From a virus, in the IMG/VR virus record IMGVR_UViG_3300042924_008060, positions 1-64,000 of that record: a DNA stretch of 64,000 nucleotides, one strand, 5' to 3'. Positions 15,935-61,511 of the stretch are shown in pieces; position 1 is the stretch's first letter, and the number at the start of each line of letters is the position of its first letter. Below the pieces are notes generated by a model that was not told the origin of the DNA, ran no database searches, and saw only the letters and a list, made by a program, of their open reading frames with translations. Both the position numbers and the translations under genes were made by a program.

Positions 15935-16480
15935 ATGACCACTGACCACTTTGAATACAAGTCGACATCCCTTGGCTCCGCTTCACAGAAAGCCGGCTCC
16001 GTCAATCTCGATGAGATGCAAGGAATTGTTGAGTGCTTTGTAGCTGGAATCGGCAATAAAGACTCTGTTGGTGATATTTGCGCAAGTGGTGCTTTTACGA
16101 AGAGTCTTCAGCGCCGCAAGCCGCGTGTTGTGTGGGGCCATAACTGGAATGACCCAATCGGCAAAGTACTCGAAATTTACGAGGTGCCACCGTCTGACCC
16201 ACGCCTACCACTAAAAATGAAGATTGCCGGAATCGGCGGATTATTTGCAAAAGTTCAATTCAATCTTCAGTCAGAAAAGGGCCGCGAAGCTTTCACGATG
16301 GTTGCTTTCTTTGGAGAAGAACAAGAATGGTCGATTGGATATAAAACCCTGCGCGCACAGTATGACCAGAAGTCTCAGGCAAACGTAATCTACGAGTTGG
16401 AGCTTTATGAAGTGTCTCCAGTTCTTCATGGAGCCAATCAACTGACTGGCACAATTTCCGTGAAGACAGATGACCCATAC
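15935..16480 (+). other. Prohead protease domain of giant 1
   Basis: The serine-protease domain that cuts scaffold and capsid delta domains in HK97-like phages. It spans residues 1-180 and contains the H69, S133 and E156/E159 candidates for the catalytic triad. In most phages it is a separate protein of about 200 residues. Here the first LSSG site is not reached until residue 822, so the protease may be released with a long tail or trimmed elsewhere. Confidence 0.85.
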
Positions 16481-19400
16481 GGCGAAGATAGCTCCGTAAT
16501 GATGATGGATGATGAAAAGCCGAACAAGTTGGAAATTGAAAAGCAACTCTCAGGAATGCTTGGCGCAAAAATATCGCTCATGGAAATGGACGACGAAAAT
16601 CTGACATTTGCTCGTCGTGTGGCTGACGGTTCAGTTAAGAGATTCAAGTGTGGCTGGAGTCGAACGGGTGGTCGAATGATGTTCGGCCCGCCAGAAGAAA
16701 TAGTGATGCAGAGACCGTCCGCACCACAAACAGCACCAATGATGGTTCCGCCAAATGAGCCAAGAAGAATGGTCCGCCCACAGCAGATGCCATCAATGCC
16801 AATAGCTGTCAAGCCAGGCATGGAGGGTGTTGTTGTTGTTCCGCTCCCTGCAGTTCAGTACGAAGAGGGCAATAACAAGCCAATAGATAAGAACAACCTC
16901 GATAAAGAGGAAGCGGACCTGCGTGACGCTTTGCTAAAAATTGTAAAACGCCACGGCAAGTTCAACGAAGACAAAGATGGTGTGTGGGCTGGATATAAAC
17001 CGGCTTCAGAAAATCCCATCGCATCAATCGGGGTCAAGTGTGCAAATTGCGTGTTCTTCCAAAATGATGGGTCATGCAAGATTGTTGATATGGACATCGA
17101 ACCAGAAGGCAAATGTCGTTTTGCAGTAATTCCAAAAGGCGTTGTCAATGTCGATGGAATTGCTAAAAAGGAATACGAAATTGAAGAAGACGCAAATTTC
17201 GATGAAGCTATTGAAGACCTAGAAGTTAAGTACCCTGGCGAGTTTGTCATGGCCATGCTTCGCGGAGCGGTAGGTAAGAGAAAAAAGAAGCGTAGCAAAT
17301 TTAAATCACTTTCTGAATTTGGCAAAGATGACAACTCATTCGATGAGCAATACTGCATTCCGCTTCACCCAAATGACGCGTTCCGTGTCAAGCAAGAAAT
17401 TGACCCAATTCTCGATTACTACATGGTTGATGCAGAAGTGGATATTGATGGAATCGTTCTCAAATCCGGGGTTAGTTTAGATTTTATTGAAGCAGTCGAT
17501 AACGCTCTGGAAAACATAAAAAAAAAATTTCTAGATAGCTCTGAGTTTGAGTCAAAAGCGATTGGCCGAAGACTAGGAAGCTACGTTGGCAGCAGACTCA
17601 TTGATAGACCATCAATCGGTGGCCGTCGAGACAGAAGAAATCGCCGTGGCGACATTGACATGCCAACCGGCGGAACACCAGGAAATCGACGACCAACGGG
17701 GAGCGACTTCGACCCCGACAACGATGGCTGGGTAGATGAAGGAACAACACGACCCCGCTTCGTCGGCGTGCAAGATGCAAAACCGGCAACACCGTCAAAA
17801 CCCTTCTCTTCTGGAGCTGAGAAACGCTCACGATTTAATACTTCACGTCACGGTCTTGGAAAAGAAACCGAGAGTAAGTTTGGTGTCGCACCAGATGAAC
17901 AGGCAAGACGAGAAGCATTTGACAAGACTGCACAGGAATGGGTTGATAAGGGCTTCGGCTGGGAGGAAGTGCCTCGCTACCAAACAGACAATACACGTTC
18001 CGCAGAGTTCTTAAGAGGGCGCGAGCTTGGGTACAACCAAGCAAGAAGAGCATGGCAAGGCGACGACAAGAAGCGCCCAGCAAAATTCAACGAAAAAGCA
18101 AAGAGCGGACAGGCGTATCAAGAGTGGTATTACGATTTTGTTCGCACACTAGGCACATACCTCGATGCAACAAATAAGTATTTTGCCGGAAAAGACAAAA
18201 AGGACAAGAATAAAAATTATGTTGGCGAAGACGGCGAGAGCCAGTTTCTTAAAGGACTTGATAGTGCGCTACGCAGCGAAGTCTATGAGCGTCGCCCGTC
18301 AACTGGAACATGGGACCCAAACGATAAAGAGACTCTTGCTCGCTGGATGAACTCATATGGGTTCGACGGTGCAAGCCCAAACAAGCCAGATAGAAAACTC
18401 TCATCCGGAAGACTTCCTGCGCTCGATGACGATTTCGACCCAGATAATCCCTACGGCGACGACAACCTTCCATTCGATGAGAGCGGAACTGATACATACG
18501 ACAGAATTATTAGAGATTTCCTCGGCGAAGAAATGCCACGTCCAAAACGAGGGAAAATCGCTCCACCAGAAAAGAACCCAGAAGACTATACAGACCAGGA
18601 TATTTACGAAGAGCGCATGAATGGCGTATCCATTGAGGATATGGCCAAAAAACTTGGTGTAACAAGAACGGAGGTGCGCCAGGCAGAACAAAGATACATG
18701 TCCGAGATTCGAAGAGGCAGTGCATCGCGTGCTGCCGAGAGCGCGCCAAGACTTTCTAGTGGATTTGAGAATTTCCTAAAAAAGCCAGAAAACAAGCGCA
18801 CTCGTCGTGAAAAGCAAGACTACTTAGGACCACTCTGGGAATACAGGGATGGCCAGACACTGTCATCTGGAAAAGATGAAAATCAAGAAGCAGATGCAGC
18901 TCGTATTAAAGACATGTACCAGCAAATGGGTGAAGCAATTATTGCTGCGCTTGATGAGATATTAAAGGACCCAAGCAAAGCTGGCCAGTGGCAAGTGCCT
19001 TGGCGCTCGCCAGAGTTGTACGGTCGAAATCCAACAAGAAGAAATCGTATTTATCAAGGCATGAATCAATTGATTCTTTCCCAGGTCGCATCAAAGCGCA
19101 AATACAAAACAAATCGTTGGGCTGGACGTTCGCAGTGGCGTGAGTTGAATAAGAAAGCAAAACCAAAACCAGGAGAAATTGGTGTCAATATCCTCGTTCC
19201 GTTTGACATAAAAAATGATGACGGAATTCGTACTGGTGAAAAGGGTTTCAAAATTGAAACAGTATTCAACGCCGACCAAATGGACGGACTGCCAGCATGG
19301 GTCTACGAAGTCAAAGAAACAGAAAAACTTGATGCGGCACAACGACTTGAAGACATTGAAAATGTAATCAAAGAAATTGGTCCTAGATACAGGGAACAGG

Positions 19401-22400
19401 GAGTCAGTGCATTCTACGACCCAAACGATGACACGATAAATGTTCCTCCATTTGAGAACTTTATTGAACCAATTGCTTTCTATGGAACAGTTCTGCATGA
19501 AATTATTCACTGGACAGCCCATCCATCGCGACTAAAGAGAGACCTAAGCGGCAGAATGAAGGGCACCCCAGAACAGAGAAAGAAATACGCATTTGAAGAA
19601 CTCATCGCAGAAATCGGTGCTTCATTTGCGATGGGATTCCTCGGTGTAGAGCCTCAAATACGCGAGGACCATATTCAGTACCTAGCGTTCTGGCGCAAAG
19701 CACTGCAGGACGACCCAAGCTCAATCCGTCGTGCAATTGAAGGCGGACAGCAGGCTGTTGACTACATTATGAATAAGTCAGCAACGCTGCGCAAGCGCGC
19801 TGGTGTTCCAGACAGCGAACGCAAGGGTAAAGAAGACTACACAATTGAAGCGCCAATCGTTGGTCGAATCACTATCCCAATTCCAAAGAAAAAGCCAGTT
19901 GTCGGCACACCAACACCAGAAAACAAAGTACGTCAACGCGTGCGTGTTCGTGGACAAGGTCCATCTGCAGTAAAAACTATCCTTGAGGACTACGAGAATA
20001 ATCGTCTTTCAAGCGGCATAACCGGATTCGTTATCAAGGACGAAGAAGGCAACACGTATAACCAAATTAACAAGCGTCTTTCTTCTGGCCGCGGACCAAT
20101 TGTTGGCGCCAAGGACCCTAAGCGCAAGATTGAGCGAACTGAGGGTTCGTTCATGGAAATGTTTGGAATGAAGTTTGAGCCGACTGATGAACAAAAAGAC
20201 GTTATGGACACAGTTGCACACTTCACAAAAACTGGTGAAGGTGGATTGGTTGCTGTTCGCGCAGGAGCCGGAGCAGGTAAAACCACCACACTTGAACAAT
20301 CTGTTATTCGTATGGCCAAGGAATCTCCGGAGTCACAGTTTTATTACATAACATTCAATAAGAAAAATGCTTCAGAAGCAGCACGTAGAATGCCTGACAA
20401 CACAGGAAGCTCTTCGATTAACCAATTGGCATACTGGTCCCTATTGCTCGAAGACAGGCCAGGAATTTCTCCAGAGTTCAAAGAGAAACTAAAAAAGATA
20501 GGCATTGGCGCCGGCAACGAGTACTACTCATCAGCAAACCCTAAATCAACAAGACAAACGTCTGCAGAGGGATATGGTGGAAAAACTGTCGATACAACAG
20601 GATTGAAAAAAGCTGGATTCAGAACTTTGGGATACGTTTCGTTTGAAACAACAAGCGGTGGTCGCGACGTAGCGAGACACTACGATTTCGGCACGAAATA
20701 CCCAGACGGACTCACCCACGAAGGGGTGGAGCTGACTGCTGACGATTATGGTCTTGTTCTCATCAACGCCCTTACTCGTTATTCACAGAGTGATGATGAT
20801 GTGCTTAGTGAAAAACATTTCAAGCTTCGTCCACACGAAATTGAAAGAAATAAGCAACTTGCCGAGTCTGGCGACCCAATCGACCCTGCCGAAACAGCAT
20901 TCGACCAGATACCACAAGAGTGGGTTGACCTAGCACTCAAAATGTGGTCTGACACGCTCGACCCGAAGAGCAATGTACTGCCCAATTACGACCAGCAAGT
21001 AAAGATTTGGGCTATGCAAAAACCAAATCTGCGTACAGACGCTGGAATGGTTGGTCACGGCACAAGAAAAGTGAAAGATGCAAGAGCACAGGACAAAAAA
21101 CTTGACCCAGGCTCAATAGTCCAAGTTGATGGTGTGGATTATGTCTACACAGGTGGTGGAGCACGCGCCGGATTGCGTCGCCGATATGCAACGGAAGATA
21201 AGCCCATTTCGACTTTCTTCTTTGACGAAGCTCAGGACGTAAACCCAGTTCTCCAAAAGGTGATTGAAGACAATATTGCGAATAATAATCTTGCAATAGT
21301 CATGGTCGGTGACCCACGGCAATCAATTTATGGATTCCGTGGTTCATCTGACTCATTCGCTCGACTCAATCCAGATTTCAACTTAACGTTGACTGACTCA
21401 TTCAGATACGGAAAGACAGTTGCGTTCCTTGGAAACTTGATGCTTGGTCGTGGAAACATGACCGACAGGCAGGGTGGGATTGATGAGGTTTCTGCGGACT
21501 ACAAGTTGTTTGGCCGACTTCAGGATGTGGTTTCTCATGACTTCAATCTTGGAACACTCACCGGAAATGATTTGCGTAAGAAACTTGATTCAATACAAAA
21601 GAAATACGGAATTTCTGGTCCAGACGGACAGTCACTGGCAGATATGCCAGAAAAAGAGAGAAATGAGCTACTGGACAAGGCTCGTGGTTACATCGTTCCA
21701 GAATCGGAAGGAATCCTCTACCGTCAGATACCAACAAGCGCAGATGGTACGTGGGCATATATTTCTTATTCAAACAAAAACACCCTTACAGCTGCCTTGG
21801 AATTCATCGGAGCGCATCCAGACAAAATCGTTGGATTGCCTGCCGAAAAATACAGAGACATGGTTGAATTCCTACGCCACTATCAGTTTGTCCTCCGTCC
21901 TGTTGGGACACGACCACGCGAATCAAAGATTATTGGCAATGCGTGGACAATGGAGGAAATCAGAAAACGCGCAGGTCAAAAATCATCCTATGGTCAACTG
22001 GGTTCAATGCTCAAGCTTTTGCAGGTTCGAGACGCAGAAGGAAATCAACTTTCCCCACTTGACTGGCTAAACAGATTGCTAGGTCGAAGGGACCCACAAA
22101 CTGGCGAGGTCTTAACTAGAGCAAGAATACGAGAAATAGAAGAACCACTCGATGTTGACCCATTCAAGAATATAGATGGAAGTTCTTCGACGGTTTCTGG
22201 TGAGGAACTAATTGCTCTCGGAAAACAAAAAGCAGGTAAAGGCGGCGGTGGAGCTAAGGGTGCGTACAAGATGAATCGTGATAAGCGATTTAACATCATC
22301 CCGAACCCAACCGGCCAGACACCAAGCAGAGAAGTTTTCTGGAAACTGGATACCGAAAGTCTTGGTGCAGATGGGAAATGGGAGAATGGAGTAATTATTT

Positions 22401-24799
22401 CCGGTGAAGGAATAATTGATGTCTACCAGTTCAGGGACGCAGCAGGAAAAATTCAGTACACAGGTGACAAGAACGGCGAAAAGCCTATGATGCGACGCCG
22501 GATTGAGAAAATGATTAAAGACCTCAATCTGGAAGGAAAAGTCACAATAGAAAAGCAGTACGTACCACGTAAGGCTGGCTCATCGAATGCACCAGCATAT
22601 GACGCTGTAAGAATAAAGGGAGATAATCCAGAAGAGACTGGATTGCTCCTCAGCCTTGTTGGAAGAATGATAACTGACTCAGCAAACGAGCCAGAAGTTG
22701 ATGCATCGTTCTTAACAACACACGCAGCCAAAGGTTTGGAATTCGACAACGTGGTTGCCGGAGACGATTTCTTCCAGCCAAAGTTTGAAGACGATGGTTC
22801 GATACTTCCAGGGAATGACATAAGTCGTGAAATGGAAAACCTTATTTACGTCATGATGACTCGCGCAAAAAAGCGCATTCAGTTGTCTGAGGCAACGTCA
22901 TGGATTATCGACCCAAAGAAAAATCCAAAGGGTTTTGAATATATTGAAAAGTTCCTAACCGAGGAGCAGCAGGCTCCTTCTGGATTTTGGAACCCATTTG
23001 GAGATGGTGAGCAAGTATTCCCTGATGGCGCAAGAGAGATACTTTCAAGCGGTCGCGTAAATAGCGTACCTGAAACAGCAGTTCCAGGAACTGGGACCAA
23101 CAGGTCGGCAAGACGAGCAAGACTTCGTGGCGGAGATGTTGAGCGACAGGCCACTACAGAAACATCAGCACCAGAAACGCCAGTAGTCCAAGCGCCAGAA
23201 CGGACAGCAGCAGTTGGTGGGCCACGTTCAGTAAACAGTTCAAATCGCGCTGACAGAAAAGCACGAAGAATGAGTAGCGGGTCCACTTATGCGGACAATA
23301 TCAATGCTACAAATCTTGCTGCAATTAGAGGCTCAAAGACTGGAGAGTCATTCGCGTTTGCCAGAAGATTCTGGGATGGTTTTAGAAAACGCGGAATAAC
23401 GCTAGATACGTCAAGTAAGTCCGGAACAGTAAAAGAGCGCAGACGACAGATAAATGAGGGCCTGGATAAGGCTGCCGCCGCAATGAAGCGTCGACCACAA
23501 GTAACTATCGGTCGCGTATCTGGGAATGAAAATCTTTCGAATCCAGATGCAGATACATGGATGCTTCCAGTAAAGAGCCTGAAGGAATCAATCAGAATTC
23601 CAACAGAGTTTGATGTTGTCAGAAATCCAGACAACACAATTGCTGATGTAAAGTGGACCAAGTCGGAACCAATTTCCAACACCGACCTTTCAAGATTGCT
23701 AAATTTATCGCCAGAGGATGCAAAGAGGATTTCTGATGATGATTCTGGAATATCCCACAATGCCGTCAGATTCCTCGTTGCAGAACTCGGCAATAGACCT
23801 GAATTTGGTGGATGGAGATTGTTCTCGCCAGTAACTTCAGACGAGCCGGGCGTGGAGAAGATGTCGTCAGCTCAACGTTTTGCCGAAAATCTCGGTAGAG
23901 CCAATATGCGCGACAGATTCATCATTGAAACATTTGGGAAAGACGCATATCCGTTCTGGGCCGACAGGGAAGAAAATCAAATCATTTCTTCAGATGAATA
24001 CTCCACTCTTGGAGAAGTCGACCCAGTGGCAAAATTTAGGGCAACTGGAAGATTTACGCCAAACCCAGAAGACGCTGATGGCGAAGCTTCTGCCGAGGCT
24101 GACCTTATTTACGAGGGAATGCCAGACTTTGTTCCAGAAGCACCAGCACCGACGGTCAATGAAACAAACCCAGCTGGCGCAAAGACATCAAGAAGAGATT
24201 TCAAGTTGGATAATCTCATCGAAAATCTTGGTCTTGACAGAGACGAATGGATGGCTCAGCTAAGAGAAAGAATGAAGCGGTCATTCGGGATGGATGATGT
24301 CGGTTTGACCAATCCGAAAGACAGGAAGTCATGGGAAAGTGACGGAGTGCCAGTTGCAGCAATCCAGGAGATGATTCGGACAGGGATGATTGAGAATGCG
24401 GAAAGCGTTTGGCCAGAAAATGGTCAAAAGCTTGACGGTGAACTTCGCGCAAGCAAGGCAAATGTTGCCGAGGCGATGGTTGAGTTCATATCAAACACCC
24501 AGAAGGGTTCTGGTGGAAACACCAAGAGAAATAAGGAATACATCCTTGGTACGAGCAATCTTTCCGTTCTTCTAAACAATGCAGCAAAAACACGCGGCAA
24601 GACTTTCAGCAAGATTAAGGGTGATGAGCCAAGATACTCATCCAACGAGCTTCAAGATGTGGTCAATCGTTTCAATGAAATATTTGGCACAAGCCACACA
24701 ATTGAGGACATTTTCAGTAAAGAGCAATTAGAAAACGCACGTAAGAGACTTCAAGAAGAAGGTCGAACCATGTTCGGCAAATCAGGAACAAAAGAATAG
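15935..24799 (+). CDS. Giant polyvalent protein 1: prohead protease, ArdC/zincin, SF1 helicase
   Basis: A 2,954-residue protein in one uninterrupted frame. Residues 1-180 are an HK97-type prohead protease: H69 in VWGHNW, S133 in EWSIGY and E156/E159 in YELELYEVSP are the likely catalytic residues. A four-Cys module (CANC...C...C) is near 368-395. A shared module around 545-610 ends in an EF-hand-like FDPDNDGWVDE. Later come an HTH segment (about 897-920), an ArdC-like domain with zincin HEIIH (1188-1192), and a UvrD-type helicase with Walker A AGAGKT (1445-1450) and DEAQD (1764-1768). The motif LSSG occurs at residues 822, 940, 976, 1358, 1382 and 2370, and MSSG at 2446, each between domains. 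I infer self-processing into at least eight products. The start lacks a good ribosome site. Confidence 0.9.
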   Translation: MTTDHFEYKSTSLGSASQKAGSVNLDEMQGIVECFVAGIGNKDSVGDICASGAFTKSLQRRKPRVVWGHNWNDPIGKVLEIYEVPPSDPRLPLKMKIAGIGGLFAKVQFNLQSEKGREAFTMVAFFGEEQEWSIGYKTLRAQYDQKSQANVIYELELYEVSPVLHGANQLTGTISVKTDDPYGEDSSVMMMDDEKPNKLEIEKQLSGMLGAKISLMEMDDENLTFARRVADGSVKRFKCGWSRTGGRMMFGPPEEIVMQRPSAPQTAPMMVPPNEPRRMVRPQQMPSMPIAVKPGMEGVVVVPLPAVQYEEGNNKPIDKNNLDKEEADLRDALLKIVKRHGKFNEDKDGVWAGYKPASENPIASIGVKCANCVFFQNDGSCKIVDMDIEPEGKCRFAVIPKGVVNVDGIAKKEYEIEEDANFDEAIEDLEVKYPGEFVMAMLRGAVGKRKKKRSKFKSLSEFGKDDNSFDEQYCIPLHPNDAFRVKQEIDPILDYYMVDAEVDIDGIVLKSGVSLDFIEAVDNALENIKKKFLDSSEFESKAIGRRLGSYVGSRLIDRPSIGGRRDRRNRRGDIDMPTGGTPGNRRPTGSDFDPDNDGWVDEGTTRPRFVGVQDAKPATPSKPFSSGAEKRSRFNTSRHGLGKETESKFGVAPDEQARREAFDKTAQEWVDKGFGWEEVPRYQTDNTRSAEFLRGRELGYNQARRAWQGDDKKRPAKFNEKAKSGQAYQEWYYDFVRTLGTYLDATNKYFAGKDKKDKNKNYVGEDGESQFLKGLDSALRSEVYERRPSTGTWDPNDKETLARWMNSYGFDGASPNKPDRKLSSGRLPALDDDFDPDNPYGDDNLPFDESGTDTYDRIIRDFLGEEMPRPKRGKIAPPEKNPEDYTDQDIYEERMNGVSIEDMAKKLGVTRTEVRQAEQRYMSEIRRGSASRAAESAPRLSSGFENFLKKPENKRTRREKQDYLGPLWEYRDGQTLSSGKDENQEADAARIKDMYQQMGEAIIAALDEILKDPSKAGQWQVPWRSPELYGRNPTRRNRIYQGMNQLILSQVASKRKYKTNRWAGRSQWRELNKKAKPKPGEIGVNILVPFDIKNDDGIRTGEKGFKIETVFNADQMDGLPAWVYEVKETEKLDAAQRLEDIENVIKEIGPRYREQGVSAFYDPNDDTINVPPFENFIEPIAFYGTVLHEIIHWTAHPSRLKRDLSGRMKGTPEQRKKYAFEELIAEIGASFAMGFLGVEPQIREDHIQYLAFWRKALQDDPSSIRRAIEGGQQAVDYIMNKSATLRKRAGVPDSERKGKEDYTIEAPIVGRITIPIPKKKPVVGTPTPENKVRQRVRVRGQGPSAVKTILEDYENNRLSSGITGFVIKDEEGNTYNQINKRLSSGRGPIVGAKDPKRKIERTEGSFMEMFGMKFEPTDEQKDVMDTVAHFTKTGEGGLVAVRAGAGAGKTTTLEQSVIRMAKESPESQFYYITFNKKNASEAARRMPDNTGSSSINQLAYWSLLLEDRPGISPEFKEKLKKIGIGAGNEYYSSANPKSTRQTSAEGYGGKTVDTTGLKKAGFRTLGYVSFETTSGGRDVARHYDFGTKYPDGLTHEGVELTADDYGLVLINALTRYSQSDDDVLSEKHFKLRPHEIERNKQLAESGDPIDPAETAFDQIPQEWVDLALKMWSDTLDPKSNVLPNYDQQVKIWAMQKPNLRTDAGMVGHGTRKVKDARAQDKKLDPGSIVQVDGVDYVYTGGGARAGLRRRYATEDKPISTFFFDEAQDVNPVLQKVIEDNIANNNLAIVMVGDPRQSIYGFRGSSDSFARLNPDFNLTLTDSFRYGKTVAFLGNLMLGRGNMTDRQGGIDEVSADYKLFGRLQDVVSHDFNLGTLTGNDLRKKLDSIQKKYGISGPDGQSLADMPEKERNELLDKARGYIVPESEGILYRQIPTSADGTWAYISYSNKNTLTAALEFIGAHPDKIVGLPAEKYRDMVEFLRHYQFVLRPVGTRPRESKIIGNAWTMEEIRKRAGQKSSYGQLGSMLKLLQVRDAEGNQLSPLDWLNRLLGRRDPQTGEVLTRARIREIEEPLDVDPFKNIDGSSSTVSGEELIALGKQKAGKGGGGAKGAYKMNRDKRFNIIPNPTGQTPSREVFWKLDTESLGADGKWENGVIISGEGIIDVYQFRDAAGKIQYTGDKNGEKPMMRRRIEKMIKDLNLEGKVTIEKQYVPRKAGSSNAPAYDAVRIKGDNPEETGLLLSLVGRMITDSANEPEVDASFLTTHAAKGLEFDNVVAGDDFFQPKFEDDGSILPGNDISREMENLIYVMMTRAKKRIQLSEATSWIIDPKKNPKGFEYIEKFLTEEQQAPSGFWNPFGDGEQVFPDGAREILSSGRVNSVPETAVPGTGTNRSARRARLRGGDVERQATTETSAPETPVVQAPERTAAVGGPRSVNSSNRADRKARRMSSGSTYADNINATNLAAIRGSKTGESFAFARRFWDGFRKRGITLDTSSKSGTVKERRRQINEGLDKAAAAMKRRPQVTIGRVSGNENLSNPDADTWMLPVKSLKESIRIPTEFDVVRNPDNTIADVKWTKSEPISNTDLSRLLNLSPEDAKRISDDDSGISHNAVRFLVAELGNRPEFGGWRLFSPVTSDEPGVEKMSSAQRFAENLGRANMRDRFIIETFGKDAYPFWADREENQIISSDEYSTLGEVDPVAKFRATGRFTPNPEDADGEASAEADLIYEGMPDFVPEAPAPTVNETNPAGAKTSRRDFKLDNLIENLGLDRDEWMAQLRERMKRSFGMDDVGLTNPKDRKSWESDGVPVAAIQEMIRTGMIENAESVWPENGQKLDGELRASKANVAEAMVEFISNTQKGSGGNTKRNKEYILGTSNLSVLLNNAAKTRGKTFSKIKGDEPRYSSNELQDVVNRFNEIFGTSHTIEDIFSKEQLENARKRLQEEGRTMFGKSGTKE
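18410..18763 (+). other. Predicted fragment with HTH (giant 1, residues 826-943)
   Basis: A 118-residue stretch bounded by KLSSG and RLSSG. Its middle, VSIEDMAKKLGVTRTEVRQAE, reads as a sigma-region-4-like helix-turn-helix, so the released piece could bind DNA or RNA polymerase. The next stretch (944-979) is only 36 residues and looks like a linker or waste peptide. Confidence 0.5.
18872..20017 (+). other. ArdC-like antirestriction and zincin domain (giant 1, 980-1361)
   Basis: Bounded by LSSG motifs. The N-terminal part resembles ArdC (PWRSPELYGRNPTRRNRIYQG, then WRELNKKAKPKPGEIG). It is followed by a metallopeptidase-like part with VLHEIIHWTAHPSRL and FEELIAEIGASFAMGFLG, the usual ArdC plus MPTase arrangement. 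ArdC proteins bind ssDNA and protect incoming DNA from restriction. Delivery with the genome would make sense; that is inference. Confidence 0.75.
20090..23053 (+). other. UvrD/Rep-type SF1 helicase (giant 1, 1386-2373)
   Basis: A 988-residue stretch bounded by RLSSG and ILSSG. It carries SF1 helicase motifs in order: AGAGAGKTTTLEQ (motif I), FYYITFNKKNA (Ia), FFFDEAQDVNP (II), IVMVGDPRQSIYGFRG (III), LTTHAAKGLEFDNVV (V) and NLIYVMMTRAKKRI (VI). It would unwind DNA with ATP. The insertions make it larger than UvrD (about 720 residues). Confidence 0.88.
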
Positions 24800-24941: not shown

Positions 24942-26555
24942 ATGAGCTACGACGAGAAGGTGAATGTCAGTATCGACAGCGACGGAGACGTGCTGAAGTG
25001 CGCGAAAGGACTTGCTTCTGGCGAGTGCGGATTTGTCAAGGGCGCAAAAATTTGCGCCAAATGCGGCGCGGTACCAGTTGAAATGAAGATGGTTCCAGTT
25101 TCGGGATTGGATGGGAAAAGCGTCATGTCGGAAGATATGACAGAAGACATGATGCCAGAAATGTCAGAGGACATGGTTTCTCGCAACAAGAAGAAAAAGA
25201 AGAAACCATCCATGAAAGAAATGTACGCAGAAATGGATGACGAGGAAATGGCCGAAGACGAAGAAGAGTCAATGGCCAAAAAGCGCATGGTTCCAGAGAT
25301 GCAAGAAGATGTCGAACCAGAAATGGACGACATGGACGAAGAAGATGACGAAAACCTCGACACTGACGCAGACGAGGAAGAGATGGATTCTGAATCCGAA
25401 AAAATGTACGGAATGGGTCCAAAGGGACGCCGTAAGTTCAAGGCTGAAGACATGGATATGTCAGAAGACGAAATGGACGAAGACGAAGAAGACGAAGAAG
25501 ACATGGACATGGAAGAAGAAGACATGGACATGGAAGAAGAAGCCGAAGAGGGCGCAGAAGACGAAGAAGAAATGGACGAAGACGAAGAAGAAGATACTGA
25601 GGAAAAGTCTTTTGATGCCGGTAATGAATACTGGGATGCCCTCCGTGAAACACGTATTAAGTCGATGGGCATAAAGCCATCGGACATTGGTGCGTCAGGT
25701 TACGTCTGCTCCCTAGAGCGCAAGGCTTATGCTGGCTCTGCCCCAGTATGCGATGACTGCCCAGGTGGATGCATTGCGGAAAAAGGAATGCCAGGAATCC
25801 TTCATGTTGAAGGACTTGCTGAACAGATGTTCAATGGTCGCGTTATCGACTCTGGCTATTCTGCAGATGCGGACATGTTTGTGGTTGATGTGCAAACAAA
25901 GAGTGGAGATGTCAAGGAAATATTCATTGACGGAACAACTGCTGAAGTTATGGGTTTCCACAAACTTGACGTAAATGAATTTGAGCAAAAATCAGAGGCG
26001 TCTGAGTACAAGTTGATTGACTTCACTGAAGCTGCAGAAATCGCAGTAAAATCATTCGATGGACATGTCGTGGCTGTTGAGCCAGACGTATTCGAAGGAT
26101 TTGATTCGTACGCAGTTGAAATCGAAGGATTCGACGGAAAGTCATACGATGTTTTCGTTGCCCTCGATGGAGAGGTTCTCGGATACGACAGATACGAGCA
26201 AGATGAAGCTGAAGCAATTGAAGCAGAAGCAGCAGAGCTTGCCTTGAAGCGTGCTTTCAACGAAGAACGACGAATGGACCTTGCAAAAGAAGGCATGGCT
26301 CTTCCGGACGGTTCATACCCAATTGTTACCGAAGCTGATTTGCGCAATGCAATTCAGGCATTTGGTCGCGCCAAGGATAAAGAAGCAGCGAAGAAGCACA
26401 TCATGAAGCGGGCGCGGGCTCTGAAGCTCGAAAGCTTGATTCCAGCAAACTGGATTGCTGGTGCTTCAGAAAAGAATGAGGTGCCAAATGATGCAAACTT
26501 CCTCGCCTCACTGGTTGAGTTTCAGCTGCTCGAAGAGCAAATCGACAATCTCTAA
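24942..26555 (+). CDS. Acidic scaffold-like protein with Cys motifs and PepSY-like repeats
   Basis: A 537-residue protein. The N-terminus has a four-Cys knuckle (CAKGLASGEC...CAKC). Residues about 60-225 are extremely Asp/Glu/Met-rich with near-repeats of DMDMEEED. Then comes a Cys segment (VCDDCPGGC) and two PepSY-like units (MFVVDVQTKSGDVKEIFIDG and YAVEIEGFDGKSYDVFVALDG). The C-terminus has DLRNAIQAFGRAKDKEAAKKH, a segment recurrent in actinophage head genes. Lying between protease and capsid genes, it may be the scaffold or a packaged protein. AGGAG is well placed before ATG. Confidence 0.7.
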   Translation: MSYDEKVNVSIDSDGDVLKCAKGLASGECGFVKGAKICAKCGAVPVEMKMVPVSGLDGKSVMSEDMTEDMMPEMSEDMVSRNKKKKKKPSMKEMYAEMDDEEMAEDEEESMAKKRMVPEMQEDVEPEMDDMDEEDDENLDTDADEEEMDSESEKMYGMGPKGRRKFKAEDMDMSEDEMDEDEEDEEDMDMEEEDMDMEEEAEEGAEDEEEMDEDEEEDTEEKSFDAGNEYWDALRETRIKSMGIKPSDIGASGYVCSLERKAYAGSAPVCDDCPGGCIAEKGMPGILHVEGLAEQMFNGRVIDSGYSADADMFVVDVQTKSGDVKEIFIDGTTAEVMGFHKLDVNEFEQKSEASEYKLIDFTEAAEIAVKSFDGHVVAVEPDVFEGFDSYAVEIEGFDGKSYDVFVALDGEVLGYDRYEQDEAEAIEAEAAELALKRAFNEERRMDLAKEGMALPDGSYPIVTEADLRNAIQAFGRAKDKEAAKKHIMKRARALKLESLIPANWIAGASEKNEVPNDANFLASLVEFQLLEEQIDNL

Positions 26556-45053: not shown

Positions 45054-45054
45054 G

Positions 45055-52106: not shown

Positions 52107-52123
52107 CATCACTCCCATCAATT

Positions 52124-52129: not shown

Positions 52130-52146
52130 TCATGATTGGGGGAACA

Positions 52147-52500: not shown

Positions 52501-52504
52501 CCAA

Positions 52505-55337: not shown

Positions 55338-58300
55338 ATGTCTAACGCAGATGAGGAATTTGAGATTCCGTTTGAGCTTTCCCGAAAAGGTAGAGAGCTA
55401 GAGCAGGAAACCAAGGCCATTGGTCGTCGCCTTGCCTCGTATGTGGGCGGTCGTCTTATTGATAGGCCAAATGTTGGAGGCGGACGTAGGCGTCGTCGTG
55501 GAGACATTGATGTTCCAACAGGAGGGGTGCCAGGAAGCAGAAAACCAACCGGCAGTGATTTCGACCCGGATGCAGACGGGTGGGTCGATGAGGGCACAAC
55601 GCGTCCAAGATTTATAGGCACAAACGATGAAACCCAGGCGGTTCGACAAGCCGTGCGACTCTCTTCTGGGCAGGCAAACACAACAGAACAAACCAGCCCA
55701 GCAGAAGAAAGAGTTGCTGTGGCTCGTAAAAGAGTTGAAGGGCTAAGGGCTGCAATTGCCGAATTAGAGCGGTCCGGGAATTGGACAGGAAAAGATAACG
55801 GTGTCGTTCTTAGCGGTAATTCAAGAAGCAACGAGCCAGTCGAAACCATCGATATTGATAAACCTGGAATAAATCCAGCAAATCAAACACGTGAAGAACA
55901 CGTAGCACTCATCGAGCAAGACCTCGATAGAAGAAACATTAACGACCCTGCGCAACGGGAAAGTGAAATTAAAAAAGCCCTTTCAAGCAGAGTTACGGAA
56001 GCAAAAGAAAAACTTTATCTTGCTGAAGAAAGCCTACGAATTCAAGAATTTGAAGAAAATCGCAAAAAAATACGAGATGAACAAAATGTTCTAGATGTTG
56101 AAGAAATACCAGAAGAAAAAATTGCAGTTCTTAAAAGCGAAGCTGATTCGATAAGGTCTTTGAGTCAGCAAGAACAAGATAACCTTTTTATTTCACCAAC
56201 ACCAACTAACGCGTACTTTATTCATCATGGAGTAGCAGAACTAGATGATGGAATATTCATACCTGAACGCACAAAAGGTGGGGGAATTGGCTCTGGACAG
56301 ATACTGGGTAATACACGCGAGCTAAATGAGACACAGTCACGAAATTTACGCCGTGATTTTGCTTCAACGTCCGTCAAAGTCAAAGCATATCGCTCATTAT
56401 TGCAAAAGCTTCGCGCAAATGATGAGTCTTCAGTAATTGAGAATCAAGACGAAGTCAGAGCTATTGCGAACATCATTGGTAGTCCGTACGTGGCATTTGC
56501 TTCTGACGATAAATTTACAAAAGGCTGGGAAGTTGGTGACAGCCTGAGAATATCTGACATAAATGCCAGAAAAGGAAATGCATTTAATCTCGACGGGATT
56601 ATCAGTGAGGTCGAGTTAAATCTAGGAGTCGAAGAAAAAGCAGCATCAGAGATGCAGTCGGTATTGGCTGCACTTGGTGATGACAAGAACTTTATGTCTA
56701 CTCACTCTGGTCTGTATCAAGCTGCTACAAAATATTCTGGATATCTCGACAGATATCCAACTGAAGCCTTTTCCTCGATGATAAAGGAAATACGCACATT
56801 GTGGTTGCAGGATTTAGCAACAGCACGACACCGCAGAGGCACATCATGGTTTGGTGTAGGTAAATGGGGTCATGACATTACCAACATCCTTGGTCCTGGT
56901 GGGGAGTGGCAAGTACTAGGCAAAAATAAGCCGATTGCCGGACTCTCGAAGCCTCAGGGTTTCAGTCAGACTGATTATGACGACATATTGTTTGCGATGA
57001 CTCCAAGAATTGTCAAAATGCATGATGAAAGGGGATATGTAGACATTGATGAGCTTTTAGCTGACATAAACGAACCGATTGACTACTCAAAGCGTTTGTC
57101 TAGCGGCTCAGACAGGCCTTCTTATCCTAGAAAACCAACATACGGTGCTTTTATTGGCGGAGCAGAGCAAGAATTTGGCGATGCTAAAACATGGCAGGAA
57201 TTTAAGGACAAGTACAAAAATCGAGAAATAATTTTCTTTGATTACGAGACGACTGGTCTGGTATTTGATGAATTCCGCAAACCTTCTTCCAATGGCCAAC
57301 CAACACAGTTTGGTGCTGTGAAGATGAAAGACGGAAAAATAATTGACAGCATCAATATTTTCATGGACCCAGAAGAATCTCTTGGTGAATGGTCGCGCGC
57401 AAACCTCAAGGACATAGATGGCAATCCGCTGACAGATGAGTGGTTAAAAACCCAAACATCCATCAAAAAGGCACATGAACGACTTGCCGAGTTCGCTGGA
57501 GATGATGCAATATTCGGCGTACAAAACGCATCATTTGACAAAGACGTCCTCGAACTGGCACTATCTCAATCAGGCATTACATGGAGACCCAAGGGCTACC
57601 TAGACACTAAAGAAATTTCAGATATGGCCCTTCCTCGTTGGACGCCAGAAACAGACGACGGCCCATTCGTTCTTGATGCAGACGGGAACAAGAAGCCGTC
57701 CAATGGACTTGCCGCCATAACCAAATACCTCAATGTTGATTTAGGTGAAAAACACCATACGGCAGATGCAGATGCTGAAGCAACCGGTCTTGTCATGTCG
57801 GCGATTATCGATGGAGCCATCATTAATGGTTGGTCAACTGACGTTTTGGACAAAGACAAAAGGGATGCAAAGTTCAATTCAAATAATGCAAAATTTGCAG
57901 CAGCGGTAGATAAATTCGAACAAGATGTCGCTGAGTATCGCCGTCTTTCATCCGGAGATGACGGCGACTACAGAGGAATGCATATGGCCCCAGATGCAGA
58001 TTCTGGAGCACCACTTCACAATTTGACTGGTGTTTACCCAGATGATGTTTATTCCTCATCAAGTATCCGCTACTACGGAACGGGTAATGACAGTTTTGAC
58101 GCAGCCGCAGTAGATGTGGTTCGTCGTTTTAGAAATAAACCGAATGCCGATGTGACCGTGTATAGGGCTGTTCCGATATCGAGGGATGAGCAAATACTAA
58201 GACTCGAAAAACAGCAGAAATACATTCTCCAATATGGTCGGGTACCTCGTGGTGTATCAACAAACCTCCATCACAGCGACTATTACGACAAACTTGCATC

Positions 58301-61300
58301 TGAGCTAGATGCTCTACGCAATCAGGAAGAATCTGAGCTTGTATCAATAAATCCAGGTGACTGGGTGACCCCCGTACGACAGTATGCAGTTGAGCACGGT
58401 GAGGGAGTTCTTCGTGGGGACTATGAAATAATCAAAAAACGCGTCAAAGCAAAAGACATCTACACCAACGGTGACTCATGGCTCGAGTGGGGTTATGACC
58501 CAGATAAACGCAACTCCTTGTCTTCAGGTAAAATTTACGATTCAGTCGTAAGTGAGGAAAATTACCTATCAAACGAACAGCGAGCAGGAGTAGAGAGTTT
58601 CTCTGCGCTGATGCTGGGTGACGAACTCCAAAAAGAAGATGAGTGGATTACTAAAGATGACCCAAGATATTCCTCATTTCAGAAAATTCAGGGTATTGAA
58701 TACGATGTATTCGAAGAAGACGTTCTCGCGGATAGCGAAGAAAGAAAAGCCTTCAAAGAATCAATAAAGTCAGCAGCGAAAGATATGTTTTCTGGTGAAA
58801 TAACGACAAGAAACGACGTTATAGTCACGGCAGCAAACGGAGAAAAAATAAATCTTGGTAGAACATTCGATATTGTTGTTTCACCGACAGACGTCGTCGT
58901 ACAGAAAATGGACGAAGAAGAATTCGAAGAAGCAAGTGAAGCCCTTGGTGTCGATGGAATTATGGAAGGCGCGAAAAAGCGGCCATCCACAAGCGTGAGC
59001 TTGAAGTTCACCGTTGAAACAAAAGACAAGGACGCTGTAAAACGACTTACTCAAGCAGGAATTCCACGGCGGGAACGTTGGGACGGAATTGGAGATATGG
59101 AGGACTTCGAAAAAGGGCAAAACGAAGGCCAACTGGTAATTGCTGATTCAATCAGAACAATTGTAATCAATGGAAGAAATAAGATGATTGTCCATGATTC
59201 ACTATCCGTCGGTGCCCCAGCTCGAGGCAATGGAATAGCGAGCATTTTCAACGCCAGAAACGAGGCTGTTTACAGAGAGATTGATGCAGAAACAATATTG
59301 GCTTCCGCTCAGTCTGGGGAACAAGGCGACTATATGGGCGCAACACACTGGGCCAGAAATGGCTTTACATGGGCGTCGCAGGGCGAGCAGCAAAAATTTA
59401 TAGAAGTAATAGATAATGCGGTAAATGATTCATCACGAAAATGGTTTACGGACGAAGAAAAGAAGAGAATAACATCGCTCTACGAAAAATCAAAAAACGG
59501 AAAATTCAAAACAAATGCAACAGCAGAACAGCTTGTTGATTTTGAAGAAGCCGATGAGCTATTTAGAGCCGGAGAAGGCGTCACTATTTTAATGAAGCGT
59601 GACATCAAGCGCAAGAGCCAGCAGTCAGCTCCAAGGACTGTGGTTAATCGCCTCCTATCGCGTGGTGGCAGGAAAAATAGACGAACCTCCAACCGTCTTT
59701 CGTCTGGAGGCGAGCGTCCAATACTAAAAATGAATCAGCCAGATATAAAAGCGCATCAATTGAAAAAATATAAATACGGAGACCAAAGTGAACTTGGCGG
59801 AAATGTTCGCAGAAGCAAGTCGAACTGGCTAAAGGGCATGACTCCAAGACAAATGTCTGAATTGCTCGTCCCAACATCAAAAGAGCAATACTTTGAAATG
59901 CTTATTGATGATTTTGCGCCAGGAGGACGAGACTCTGCAGAATACGTAAAAAGATTCAACGCCGTCCATGACGAGTATTTTAAAAACAATCCATGGGATG
60001 ATATGGATTTCTCCCCCGAAGCAGTTGAAGCTGTGCGTAACGCTGTTGAGCGAGCTGTCGAATCAAATCCAAAACTAAAGTGGGCATTTGAGACACACGG
60101 TGCTCCCGTTTTCTACATGCAAACAGCTGATGCTTCGAGGGCGTATGAAAGCTTGCCTCAGGTTTCGTCAAAACTTGAACAAATAAAGAGTGTTCGCGGA
60201 ATCGGTTCAAAAGACCCATATGTTCGCGCCAGGACAACTCCATTCCTTAATTCCGTATCCTTTAACCGAAGACTGATTATCGACAGGGAATCAAATTCGC
60301 TAGACACAGCACGCGAAAACGTGACCATGGACCCGACGAGACTCGTAACGAGCCGTGATAACACTATTGACAAATCAATAGCTGGAGTCATAACCCATGA
60401 GTGGGGACATTGGTTGCATTTCCGAGCACTAAAAGACGTCGAACTAGCTGGCAAGCCAAAAAATCGCCATTATTTTGGTTCTGGTGACCCTCAGGATAAG
60501 CGTTACGCGCAAGCGCTGCAGGTTGCGTCCGAATATAACGATGTAATTATGAATCCTGACATGATGGCCAGATTCTCTGACGGGGTTGACATAAATTCGG
60601 TTACAGATAGTCCGATGACACTCTCTTCTTACGGTAATACAAATAAAGCTGAAGCATTTGCTGAGGCAGTAGTTGCGATACTTCACCCAAATGATAAGTT
60701 GAAGACATATGCGCTAAATAAAAAACTGCGTGAAGATGTTTATTCAATACTGTTTGTTGACGGCAATACAGAACCGTGGGGAAATCTGGCAGAAAAATCT
60801 CAGGAACGAAATTCAAGCAGTGCGCCACGCCTTTCATCTGGAGCTACTGTGGAGAAAAAAAGAGTTAAGTACTCTCCAGAGCAGATACGGCAAATAGCAT
60901 CACAGGTTGAGGTCAAATATGCCGAAACCCCAGAGAAACGCCTACTGGCAAGAAAGACTCTGCAAAAAGGATTCCAAGGCGGTTTTACTGTCGAGCTAGA
61001 CACAATGGACGACATAAAAAATGGTATAGCAGTAGCAAGAAATAGAAAAGGAATGATTTTTCCAGCTTCTGCAGACTTCACTCCGGATGGAGAGCCAACA
61101 GAAGAACTTATTGACACATTCGTTGCATGGCTGGACTTTCACGGACCTGAAGTATTCAACAACCCATCGGATGGAGCAGAAAGAGTCGCTATCGGCGGAT
61201 GGGTGGATGACGGAACTCTTTATCTTGACGTAACCGATATCTACCCAACAGCGCAATTCCTTCCGCGAGCCAGGGATTTGGGTGGGCAGGAAAACCAAAA

Positions 61301-61511
61301 AGCTGTAACCAACCTGAACGTTCTGTGGGAGTTGCTCGAGTCTGGGGCAGATGACCTGAGTCCTGCCTTTATTGATACCGGCGGCGATGGCGGCCAAACA
61401 ATTACTAGGGAAACAATTGAACGGTTCAGAAAGGCCCTACTTGCTTTTGAGTCAGGCGATGAAGGACAGCCACGATTGCCCATAAAAAACACTAAGAAAA
61501 AATCTTCATAA
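55338..61511 (+). CDS. Giant polyvalent protein 3: DnaQ, ADP-ribosyltransferase-like, GNAT-like, zincin
   Basis: A 2,057-residue protein. Residues about 28-92 repeat the module of giant 1 (AIGRRLASYVGGRLIDRP, then PTGSDFDPDADGWVDEGTTR). LSSG follows at 108, 587, 870, 1061, 1454 and 1832, giving predicted pieces 1-111, 112-590, 591-873, 874-1064, 1065-1457, 1458-1835 and 1836-2057. Recognisable domains fall inside single pieces: DnaQ exonuclease (D635), ART-like fold (R943, E1050), GNAT-like motif (R1296-A1301) and zincin HEWGH (1687-1691). The 112-590 and 1836-2057 pieces are unrecognised. It is 15 kb downstream of the head operon but shares its N-terminal module, so a common fate such as packaging is likely. 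Confidence 0.88.
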   Translation: MSNADEEFEIPFELSRKGRELEQETKAIGRRLASYVGGRLIDRPNVGGGRRRRRGDIDVPTGGVPGSRKPTGSDFDPDADGWVDEGTTRPRFIGTNDETQAVRQAVRLSSGQANTTEQTSPAEERVAVARKRVEGLRAAIAELERSGNWTGKDNGVVLSGNSRSNEPVETIDIDKPGINPANQTREEHVALIEQDLDRRNINDPAQRESEIKKALSSRVTEAKEKLYLAEESLRIQEFEENRKKIRDEQNVLDVEEIPEEKIAVLKSEADSIRSLSQQEQDNLFISPTPTNAYFIHHGVAELDDGIFIPERTKGGGIGSGQILGNTRELNETQSRNLRRDFASTSVKVKAYRSLLQKLRANDESSVIENQDEVRAIANIIGSPYVAFASDDKFTKGWEVGDSLRISDINARKGNAFNLDGIISEVELNLGVEEKAASEMQSVLAALGDDKNFMSTHSGLYQAATKYSGYLDRYPTEAFSSMIKEIRTLWLQDLATARHRRGTSWFGVGKWGHDITNILGPGGEWQVLGKNKPIAGLSKPQGFSQTDYDDILFAMTPRIVKMHDERGYVDIDELLADINEPIDYSKRLSSGSDRPSYPRKPTYGAFIGGAEQEFGDAKTWQEFKDKYKNREIIFFDYETTGLVFDEFRKPSSNGQPTQFGAVKMKDGKIIDSINIFMDPEESLGEWSRANLKDIDGNPLTDEWLKTQTSIKKAHERLAEFAGDDAIFGVQNASFDKDVLELALSQSGITWRPKGYLDTKEISDMALPRWTPETDDGPFVLDADGNKKPSNGLAAITKYLNVDLGEKHHTADADAEATGLVMSAIIDGAIINGWSTDVLDKDKRDAKFNSNNAKFAAAVDKFEQDVAEYRRLSSGDDGDYRGMHMAPDADSGAPLHNLTGVYPDDVYSSSSIRYYGTGNDSFDAAAVDVVRRFRNKPNADVTVYRAVPISRDEQILRLEKQQKYILQYGRVPRGVSTNLHHSDYYDKLASELDALRNQEESELVSINPGDWVTPVRQYAVEHGEGVLRGDYEIIKKRVKAKDIYTNGDSWLEWGYDPDKRNSLSSGKIYDSVVSEENYLSNEQRAGVESFSALMLGDELQKEDEWITKDDPRYSSFQKIQGIEYDVFEEDVLADSEERKAFKESIKSAAKDMFSGEITTRNDVIVTAANGEKINLGRTFDIVVSPTDVVVQKMDEEEFEEASEALGVDGIMEGAKKRPSTSVSLKFTVETKDKDAVKRLTQAGIPRRERWDGIGDMEDFEKGQNEGQLVIADSIRTIVINGRNKMIVHDSLSVGAPARGNGIASIFNARNEAVYREIDAETILASAQSGEQGDYMGATHWARNGFTWASQGEQQKFIEVIDNAVNDSSRKWFTDEEKKRITSLYEKSKNGKFKTNATAEQLVDFEEADELFRAGEGVTILMKRDIKRKSQQSAPRTVVNRLLSRGGRKNRRTSNRLSSGGERPILKMNQPDIKAHQLKKYKYGDQSELGGNVRRSKSNWLKGMTPRQMSELLVPTSKEQYFEMLIDDFAPGGRDSAEYVKRFNAVHDEYFKNNPWDDMDFSPEAVEAVRNAVERAVESNPKLKWAFETHGAPVFYMQTADASRAYESLPQVSSKLEQIKSVRGIGSKDPYVRARTTPFLNSVSFNRRLIIDRESNSLDTARENVTMDPTRLVTSRDNTIDKSIAGVITHEWGHWLHFRALKDVELAGKPKNRHYFGSGDPQDKRYAQALQVASEYNDVIMNPDMMARFSDGVDINSVTDSPMTLSSYGNTNKAEAFAEAVVAILHPNDKLKTYALNKKLREDVYSILFVDGNTEPWGNLAEKSQERNSSSAPRLSSGATVEKKRVKYSPEQIRQIASQVEVKYAETPEKRLLARKTLQKGFQGGFTVELDTMDDIKNGIAVARNRKGMIFPASADFTPDGEPTEELIDTFVAWLDFHGPEVFNNPSDGAERVAIGGWVDDGTLYLDVTDIYPTAQFLPRARDLGGQENQKAVTNLNVLWELLESGADDLSPAFIDTGGDGGQTITRETIERFRKALLAFESGDEGQPRLPIKNTKKKSS
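55671..57107 (+). other. Unrecognised predicted piece (giant 3, 112-590)
   Basis: A 479-residue stretch between RLSSG motifs. It has a coiled-coil region (about 200-260, containing LSSR at 215-218), then a folded part with AYFIHHGVAELDDGIFIPER and TSWFGVGKWGHDITNILGPGG. I cannot name a family. Confidence 0.4.
57108..57956 (+). other. DnaQ-like 3'-5' exonuclease (giant 3, 591-873)
   Basis: A 283-residue stretch between LSSG motifs. DEDDh exonuclease motifs are in order: FFDYETTGLV (D635, E637), IFGVQNASFDKDVL, and KHHTADADAEATGLV. Catalytic residues look intact. Confidence 0.85.
57957..58529 (+). other. ADP-ribosyltransferase-like domain (giant 3, 874-1064)
   Basis: A 191-residue stretch. 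VTVYRAVPIS (R943), SINPGDWVTPVRQYAVEHG and the C-terminal GDSWLEWGYDP (E1050) match the R / S-T-S-like / E layout of phage ADP-ribosyltransferases. In T4, packaged ADP-ribosyltransferase Alt modifies host RNA polymerase on entry. Confidence 0.72.
58530..59708 (+). other. GNAT-like domain (giant 3, 1065-1457)
   Basis: A 393-residue stretch. Near its centre HDSLSVGAPARGNGIASIF carries an R-x-x-G-x-A acetyl-CoA loop, followed by YMGATHWARNGFTWAS. The rest is unrecognised. Confidence 0.5.
59709..60842 (+). other. HExxH zincin domain (giant 3, 1458-1835)
   Basis: A 378-residue stretch with SIAGVITHEWGHWLHFRAL (HEWGH 1687-1691) and a downstream NKAEAFAEAVVAIL that could give the third zinc ligand. 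It resembles the metallopeptidase domains of polyvalent proteins. Confidence 0.75.

Follow-up and report, generated by a model that had tools for sequence, protein, structure and literature searches.

In the polyproteins of RNA viruses, one chain contains an embedded protease and the cut sites lie at the borders of its modules. For phages, the peptidases embedded in polyvalent proteins were proposed to release domains, and the analogy to RNA-virus polyproteins was drawn (Iyer et al. 2017, PMC5512222). In the giant Salmonella phage SPN3US, a single short motif directs the processing of several head proteins as the head matures, and the prohead protease gp245 cleaves after AXE at 14 sites in nine proteins (PMC10052503), and in P1 the antirestriction-set head proteins DarA and DdrB are cut and carried in the head (PMC12810830, PMC5512222). 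Here, we analysed positions 1 to 64,000 of the 65,487-base virus record IMGVR_UViG_3300042924_008060 (the window), which encodes three giant proteins. Like the polyvalent proteins described in PMC5512222, these are very large multi-domain phage proteins with ArdC and MPTase domains and are encoded near virion genes. They contain the short motif LSSG, which tends to lie at the borders between their modules. We consider it probable that the giants are polyproteins and that a phage protease recognises the border motif in trans and divides them into separate enzymes.

The three open reading frames (ORFs) were located where the original prediction, made for the same DNA, had placed them, and encode 2954 (giant 1), 2458 (giant 2) and 2057 residues (giant 3), 7469 together. 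Exact LSSG was found 6, 2 and 6 times, respectively. These 14 copies compare with 0.21 expected from the residue frequencies and 0.78 from a first-order Markov estimate, and 2000 shuffles of the giants gave a mean of 0.21 and a maximum of 3. RLSSG was seen 10 times (0.02 expected). The recount agrees with the prediction, which had named 14 copies with a chance expectation well under one and had R or K mostly in front; this residue was R or K at 11 of the 14 sites. The single MSSG (giant 1) had been listed correctly, but FSSG occurs twice rather than once (residue 624 of giant 1 and residue 1954 of giant 2) and one ISSG (residue 1230 of giant 2) comes in addition. In the remaining 42 window ORFs listed, no LSSG was found (0.32 expected). 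The codons at the LSSG sites vary, with different Leu codons and both TCN and AGY for Ser, and the sites are therefore not copies of one DNA repeat. A repeat or recombination signal at the DNA level was ruled out by this codon diversity. The features of the window are as follows.

15935 to 24799, plus strand: giant 1, 2954 residues, with S78 prohead protease, shared module, ArdC antirestriction domains, UvrD-like helicase and unknown modules; 6 LSSG, 1 FSSG, 1 MSSG
16025 to 16456, plus strand: Peptidase_S78 domain, giant 1 residues 31-174; an alignment of 7 proteases shows H69 and S133 without variation
17543 to 17791, plus strand: basic shared module, giant 1 residues 537-619, directly ahead of the first motif site
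17804 to 17815, plus strand: FSSG site, giant 1 residue 624; LSSG in relative L006 and MASG in relative G008 in the same region
18398 to 18409, plus strand: KLSSG site, giant 1 residue 822
18752 to 18763, plus strand: RLSSG site, giant 1 residue 940
18860 to 18871, plus strand: TLSSG site, giant 1 residue 976
18908 to 19735, plus strand: ArdC N-terminal and MPTase-PolyVal domains, giant 1 residues 992-1267 (profile match)
20006 to 20017, plus strand: RLSSG site, giant 1 residue 1358
20078 to 20089, plus strand: RLSSG site, giant 1 residue 1382
20147 to 22891, plus strand: UvrD-like helicase, giant 1 about residues 1405-2319 (profile match)
23042 to 23053, plus strand: ILSSG site, giant 1 residue 2370
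23270 to 23281, plus strand: RMSSG site, giant 1 residue 2446
26573 to 33949, plus strand: giant 2, 2458 residues; residues 1-1301 free of the motif except ISSG at 1230, then 2 LSSG and 1 FSSG
27140 to 27334, plus strand: conserved RCPPGTPAANQFTD..G.NCF segment, giant 2 residues 190-254, a possible head-targeting part
28316 to 28675, plus strand: predicted metallopeptidase core, giant 2; H582, E583, H586, E697, A700 and E701 invariant in 12 aligned lineages
30476 to 30487, plus strand: RLSSG site, giant 2 residue 1302
30881 to 30892, plus strand: RLSSG site, giant 2 residue 1437
32432 to 32443, plus strand: WFSSG site, giant 2 residue 1954
38763 to 40112, plus strand: major head (capsid) protein (phrog_10, E 7e-59)
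55338 to 61511, plus strand: giant 3, 2057 residues, with shared module, unknown module, exonuclease, phrog_2579 module and further modules; 6 LSSG, and HEWGH at residue 1687 in one module
55401 to 55643, plus strand: shared module, giant 3 residues 22-102, directly ahead of the first motif site
55659 to 55670, plus strand: RLSSG site, giant 3 residue 108
57096 to 57107, plus strand: RLSSG site, giant 3 residue 587, left border of the exonuclease module
57231 to 57785, plus strand: RNase_T/DnaQ-like exonuclease, giant 3 residues 632-816 (profile match)
57945 to 57956, plus strand: RLSSG site, giant 3 residue 870
57960 to 58505, plus strand: phrog_2579 module (annotated as ParB C-terminal domain), giant 3 about residues 875-1056
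58518 to 58529, plus strand: SLSSG site, giant 3 residue 1061
59697 to 59708, plus strand: RLSSG site, giant 3 residue 1454
60831 to 60842, plus strand: RLSSG site, giant 3 residue 1832

The domains found by profile each fell into a single predicted piece between motif sites, as had been stated for nearly every enzyme. In giant 1, the S78 domain lies in piece 1-623, the ArdC domains in 976-1358 and the helicase in 1382-2370, and in giant 3 the exonuclease lies in 587-870 and the phrog_2579 module in 870-1061. No profile matched the larger part of giant 2 or several of the pieces in giants 1 and 3, and the borders there were checked via homologues only. An AlphaFold2 model of residues 560-1440 of giant 1 had a mean predicted local distance difference test score (pLDDT) of 60, and 352 of 881 residues scored below 50. 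Of the six motif sites in this model, four were located in stretches below 50, one overlapped such a stretch and one began two residues after such a stretch. Two pairs of sites in giant 1 (940/976 and 1358/1382) are only 24 to 36 residues apart. The linkers had been described as Ser/Gly-rich; their place at domain borders held, but the flanks are polar or charged and not strictly rich in Ser and Gly.

Related contigs were found via giants 1 and 3 plus a pattern from the module common to both. When the ORFs longer than 1000 residues of the window and of the contigs of ten relatives were counted, LSSG was the top or joint-top string of four residues (joint in G009, with 3 copies). The small ORFs of these contigs were free of LSSG in seven of the ten relatives and contained 2 copies in G002 (1.25 expected), 1 in G011 (1.25) and 1 in G012 (0.34). 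The window sites were then compared with 11 relatives with SSG-type motifs in 78 alignments, a check that the prediction had proposed and that did not refute it: the motif was better kept than the flanks, with 62% identity in the motif columns and 28% in 24 flanking columns. The motif stood in register in 47 of the 78 same-class alignments, and loss was more frequent in some distant relatives, with the motif kept in 6 of 13 for G010 and in 2 of 7 for G013. At residue 1061 of giant 3, where the window has a single LSSG, G002 carries an extra unit of 148 residues spanning exactly from LSSG to LSSG. Two sites are likewise present at this place in L018 and L020.

Among these relatives, the G013 contig (27637-49722; L076, L077) has a single ORF of 7362 residues with 17 L[SA]SG sites and exonuclease and acetyltransferase-like domains. 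GATG/GPTG repeats were seen in smaller ORFs of G011 (L067-L074) and G006 (L081-L083).

A sample blind to the motif was obtained by choosing relatives by their major capsid protein, taking the best 80 of 186 stretches encoding a relative. Their ORFs of at least 1000 residues contained 93 LSSG, with 4.0 expected in 128,066 residues. The smaller ORFs, among which giants cut by locus ends may be counted, contained 25, with 10.3 expected in 332,538 residues. The distant capsid relatives mostly still had large ORFs, often without LSSG.

De novo pattern discovery in the large ORFs, after removal of repeats with similar flanks, showed that the recurrent motif differs between lineages. GLSSG was found in G036 (20 copies) and G034 (14), RFSSG or FSSG in G037 (15) and G039 (14), and a mixture of L and F forms in G043. 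ISGRM occurred in G048 (13) and G050 (12), VSGxM in G049 (8), ITGxM together with VSGxM in G046 (7 and 5) and I-x-GKM, as ISGKM or ITGKM, in G054 (8). EAGM was repeated 17 times in G063, 9 of them in the form EAGMS. The motif was RGMAS in G057 (10), GLRS in G066 (15), GLTGA in L179 (5) and STRS in G060, with 37 copies. The longer forms RGMASR and GLRSS were also among the motifs of the distant relatives. KLSSG was observed in G052, ITGxM in G045, [DE]GF[AS]S in G047 and P[VI]GxM in G062, the wording of the last two being refined by eye. G065 and G067 yielded [LIV][ST]G[SA]M once I, L and V and also S and T were pooled. The motif of G061 was weak, and a series in G069 (G, L or F, any residue, S, mostly R) was seen by eye only.

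The significance of these patterns was evaluated by shuffle tests with 32 contigs or loci, 25 with exact patterns and 7 more with pooled residues and 10 shuffles. G002, G006, G007, G008, G009, G012 and G015 stood outside the 32; all seven were part of the count of four-residue strings, and G002, G008 and G009 also took part in the de novo discovery. A recurrent pattern well above the shuffles was obtained in 26 of the 32, two were weak or post hoc and four had none; no motif was detected in the large ORFs of G056, G058, G059 and G064. Since several are sister lineages, the 26 motif-bearing sets are not 26 independent events. In the exact-pattern test with ORFs of at least 800 residues, the best pattern scored 10.9 to 56.3 (-log10 p) in 20 of the 25 sets. 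For a control, 20 shuffles per set gave no score above 9.7, and the highest score of small proteins from these contigs was 9.6; the small-protein sets were size-matched where the sequence sufficed and were short for, e.g., G010, G013, G060 and G063. Five cultured actinophages, those whose S78 proteases are nearest, scored at most 7.0 with their large head-region ORFs (Gordonia phages GMA6, DalanDe and Chidiebere, Brevibacterium phage Cantare and Streptomyces phage Gilgamesh, the latter with one ORF of 4624 residues).

Two further origins of the motif were rejected. Chance or composition was ruled out by the shuffles, the same-contig small proteins and the large ORFs of the five cultured relatives. 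A general trait of actinophages with a related S78 protease was ruled out, since the examined head-region ORFs of the cultured phages had no such motif.

In most cases, homologous modules had on their flanks the motif that their own lineage uses, and modules move between the giants. The exonuclease module is located in giant 3 in the window, in the giant-2 homologues of G037, G044, G046, G048, G049, G050 and G054 and in the S78 giant of G043. It is flanked by LSSG in the window, G011 and G044, by ISGRM in G048 and G050, by RFSSG in G037, by ITGFM/VSGKM in G046 and by LSSG after G or S in G036. A motif was present within 53 residues on its left in 12 of the 14 homologues, including the window (exceptions G013 and G063), and within 48 residues on its right in 12 of 14 (exceptions G063 and G049, the latter with none downstream). 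The phrog_2579 module had a motif 5 to 13 residues off on both sides in 4 of 4 cases. With ArdC, the left motif was within 21 residues in 10 of 10 and the right motif within 60 residues in 6 of 10, the remaining four having no motif downstream. Inside the modules, no motif was found in 47 rows of six modules (6 rows from the window), leaving out 10 residues at each end.

Lineages with different motifs were also aligned with each other. With both partners of each pair counted, 31 of 64 comparable sites in these cross-class alignments had the motif of the partner lineage no more than 10 columns away, compared to 3.5% for random columns. Motif sites were depleted inside the alignment cores (52 of 401, 117 expected), and the starts of the alignments were close to motifs in 69 of 333 cases (31 expected, permutation maximum 48).

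That many sites of one genome changed together at homologous borders without shared DNA requires selection by a trans-acting reader common to these sites. The simplest such reader is a protease, because the motif is found in linkers, on both sides of single modules and sometimes twice in succession. In the mechanism we propose, the motif (LSSG, mostly after R or K, in the window lineage) would mark the borders between enzyme modules, and a phage protease would recognise it in trans. Its cuts, probably made while the head is assembled, would turn the giants into separate enzymes. As the reader evolves, the motif would drift as a code, such that the sites of one genome change together and related phages differ. 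The reader would most likely be the HExxH metallopeptidase embedded in the N-terminal part of giant 2, with the S78 protease as the second candidate.

The predicted metallopeptidase has the HExxH residues H582, E583 and H586 and, downstream, the glutamates E697 and E701, all invariant in 12 lineages. Eighty giant-2 loci from a larger number of stretches encoding it were examined, all of SSG type and many near-identical. HExxH was intact in 75 of the 75 with that part present; 5 of 80 end too early. In 21 giant-2 homologues from 21 contigs, HExxH followed the NQFT segment in all 21. Downstream of HExxH, each of the 21 had at least one motif, always at a distance of more than 200 residues, and in four (G036, G034, G066 and G046) a motif was also found between the NQFT segment and HExxH. 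Since the motif is always downstream, the metallopeptidase would always be released as a piece of its own. One row without HExxH, G059_43701, is probably not a true giant-2 homologue; the profile later chose a different ORF of G059. Identity of the metallopeptidase region to the window was 77% in G008 and 14-44% elsewhere. A model of the region was obtained with a pLDDT of 77 and a predicted template modelling score of 0.80. A further fold comparison had a best Z of 4.9 and listed, at Z 3.8, DPP III as well as an HExxH domain, and a profile of the N-terminal part of giant 2 gave no meaningful score to solved structures.

Several observations weigh against this proposal. We infer the cutting, the identity of the cutter and the packaging into the head. 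With regard to the motif, register was lost in 31 of the 78 same-class alignments, and 33 of the 64 cross-class sites were without a counterpart. The 52 sites inside alignment cores, some of them in linkers crossed by two-domain alignments, make the border rule a strong tendency and not an absolute one. The alignment ends were hardly enriched near motifs (53 of 329, 33 expected, permutation maximum 54), and G009, represented by one partial ORF of 2317 residues, gave no de novo pattern, yet has 3 LSSG. With regard to the metallopeptidase, fast divergence is common to the giants generally and does not single it out. The giant-2 profile missed G063, a motif-bearing lineage, and Foldseek found no match to the model at E 0.001. 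G064 keeps HExxH after a QFTD-like segment yet has no motif, and the metallopeptidase is therefore not sufficient.

The original prediction had put forward the S78 prohead protease with which giant 1 begins as the cutter, with the motif as its recognition site. That giant 1 starts with such a protease was confirmed (PF04586, E 2e-9; phrog_80, E 1e-25). H69 and S133, presumably its catalytic residues, were invariant in the seven aligned proteases, and S78 was found in 37 of the 50 relatives' records searched, many of which are fragments. Prohead proteases elsewhere cut internal head proteins at short motifs, as gp245 of SPN3US does (PMC10052503). The S78 core, however, stays similar across the codes. 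Its identity to the window was 72-91% in relatives with LSSG, ISGRM, STRS, EAGMS or no motif, and it was 96% identical between G037 (FSSG 19, LSSG 7) and its sister G044 (LSSG 15, FSSG 4). A few pocket residues could change the specificity despite the conserved core. The S78 ORF itself is free of the motif in G060, G048, G050, G054 and G046.

By analogy with HK97-like phages, an S78 protease would be expected to cut in the N-terminal region of the capsid protein. A sequence QLSSREIKSIG or similar, following a variable region, was seen in the capsid of many lineages with LSSG or FSSG, which would fit S78 as the reader. The region does not follow the code, though, since QLTSRE is present in G049 and G046 (VSGxM, ITGxM) and also in G043 (R[LF]SSG). 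None of 25 aligned capsid stretches (window residues 58-128), 22 from motif-bearing lineages, contained the motif of its own lineage; in the LSSG/FSSG lineages it is LSS-R at best, and the actual cut position may lie elsewhere. Taken together, we regard S78 as an unlikely cutter, though the foremost alternative. The prediction was thus upheld for the border signal shared by several giants and not for the prohead protease as the cutter.

In G060 (contig 42584-53934; L256, L257 and neighbours) S78 is a separate ORF of 460 residues without motif, adjacent to an ORF of 3322 residues with 12 motifs. This split of protease and cargo may be a natural fission or an unfused state.

The motif might instead be a docking tag, by which a receptor associated with the capsid, scaffold or portal holds the modules, so that the giant enters the head without being cut. 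A short, repeated, lineage-specific linker motif concentrated in the giants would equally be expected from a receptor, but its presence on both sides of modules and sometimes twice within 24-36 residues is more than a tag needs. The capsid is conserved (at least 70% identity in the best 80 of 186 stretches) while the motif turns over, and we think a docking function improbable. A host protease that reads the motif after injection, with the code following the host, would also be a trans-acting reader that differs between lineages, and the hosts may differ. The host hints, however, are limited to two capsid matches in metagenome bins, and such a reader appears very unlikely. These weak hints are L180 (75%) and L181 (67%), capsid relatives in bins labelled Actinomycetota and Phycisphaerae. 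Finally, the motif could be functionless and merely left behind where recombination between similar linker DNA shuffled the modules. This would account for the LSSG-bounded unit present or absent among close relatives and for the movement of modules between giants, but hardly deserves consideration, because codons that differ per site, lineage-wide switches at homologous places and a motif that outlasts its flanks require selection on the protein sequence.

With a phage protease as the favoured reader, a more detailed scenario can be put forward tentatively. A whole clade of uncultured tailed phages may make the enzymes it injects as polyproteins, with a fast-evolving metallopeptidase dedicated to cutting them, and the code may have been switched many times, with dozens of sites per genome changing in step.

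The composition had been called typical of polyvalent proteins, in line with the known domains of this class and the adjacent late virion genes. Several disparate domains per chain were present, including known polyvalent-protein domains (giant 2 had no profile match), and MPTase-PolyVal (PF18818) matched giant 1 with E 1e-33; ArdcN was matched there too. The polyvalent-protein domain sets of the relatives overlap with that of the window. Around giants 1 and 2, the late virion genes for terminase (phrog_979), portal (phrog_2662) and the major head protein (phrog_10) were identified, and neighbour genes in the relatives are homologous to the virion genes of the window. The shared module of giants 1 and 3 is 69% identical between the two. 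It is basic and glycine-rich (RLIDRP..DIDVPTGG.PG..PTGS.FDPD.DGWVDEGTTRPRF), precedes the first motif site in both and was found in 24 copies in 18 of 19 related records. The searches against 50,697 phage records gave no match to a 72-residue form of this module at E 1 and none to giant 2 at E 1e-5. Giant 2 had no match in Pfam and PHROGs at E 0.01, and the ORFs 24942-26555 and 35076-37127 had none in PHROGs at E 0.001.

The C-terminal part of the acidic ORF 24942-26555 between giants 1 and 2 resembles, by eye, that of the protease ORF of GMA6 (L095 15585-17039), following the pattern PDGS.PI..E.DL.NAI...GRAKDKEAAKKHI. This resemblance suggests that the cargo of giant 1 was inserted into an ancestral protease-scaffold gene. 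In various lineages, several head-region ORFs have a CP.G...QFTD...C segment close to their start, among them giant 2 (27140-27334) and the ORF 35076-37127 of the window, and we guess that it is a capsid- or head-targeting domain. The motif-free lineage G056 (L262-L264) has four separate ORFs, each with a QFTD-like segment. If head targeting is right, lineages would either target and cut one polyprotein or target each protein separately.

The border code bears on how very large polyvalent proteins could enter the head and act as separate enzymes. It names sites, two candidate proteases and cross-lineage controls, such as the same exonuclease with LSSG, RFSSG or ISGRM borders. It lets giant phage proteins be parsed into units from the sequence alone and offers a set of naturally diverged candidate protease-site pairs. 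Compared to the known systems, the arrangement differs in several respects. In the accessible text of PMC5512222, the metallopeptidase is proposed to process its own protein, whereas here one reader would serve several giants, and a shared border motif or a lineage-specific code is not described in that text. In SPN3US, 13 of the 14 sites remove N-terminal propeptides from separate proteins, as far as the available part of PMC10052503 goes, whereas here a single chain has the motif between many of its enzymes, and the motif varies from one relative to another. For P1 DarA, one N-terminal cut is reported and a repeated border motif is not described in the accessible parts of PMC12810830 and PMC5512222. 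In the open-licence literature, neither a repeated border motif nor a lineage-specific code was found to be described, which agrees with the claim that a shared cleavage signal had not been described. Because the proteins are polyvalent and the border code is undescribed in the literature found, the system is a new feature, the lineage-specific border code, of a known kind, the polyvalent proteins. Unlike the polyproteins of RNA viruses, it belongs to tailed phages with double-stranded DNA, is spread over several chains and has its modules shuffled between them. If the tentative scenario of repeated code switches is true, these phages would have a prokaryotic equivalent of the polyproteins of RNA viruses, and their sequences would hold a readable natural record of how protease and substrate evolved together.

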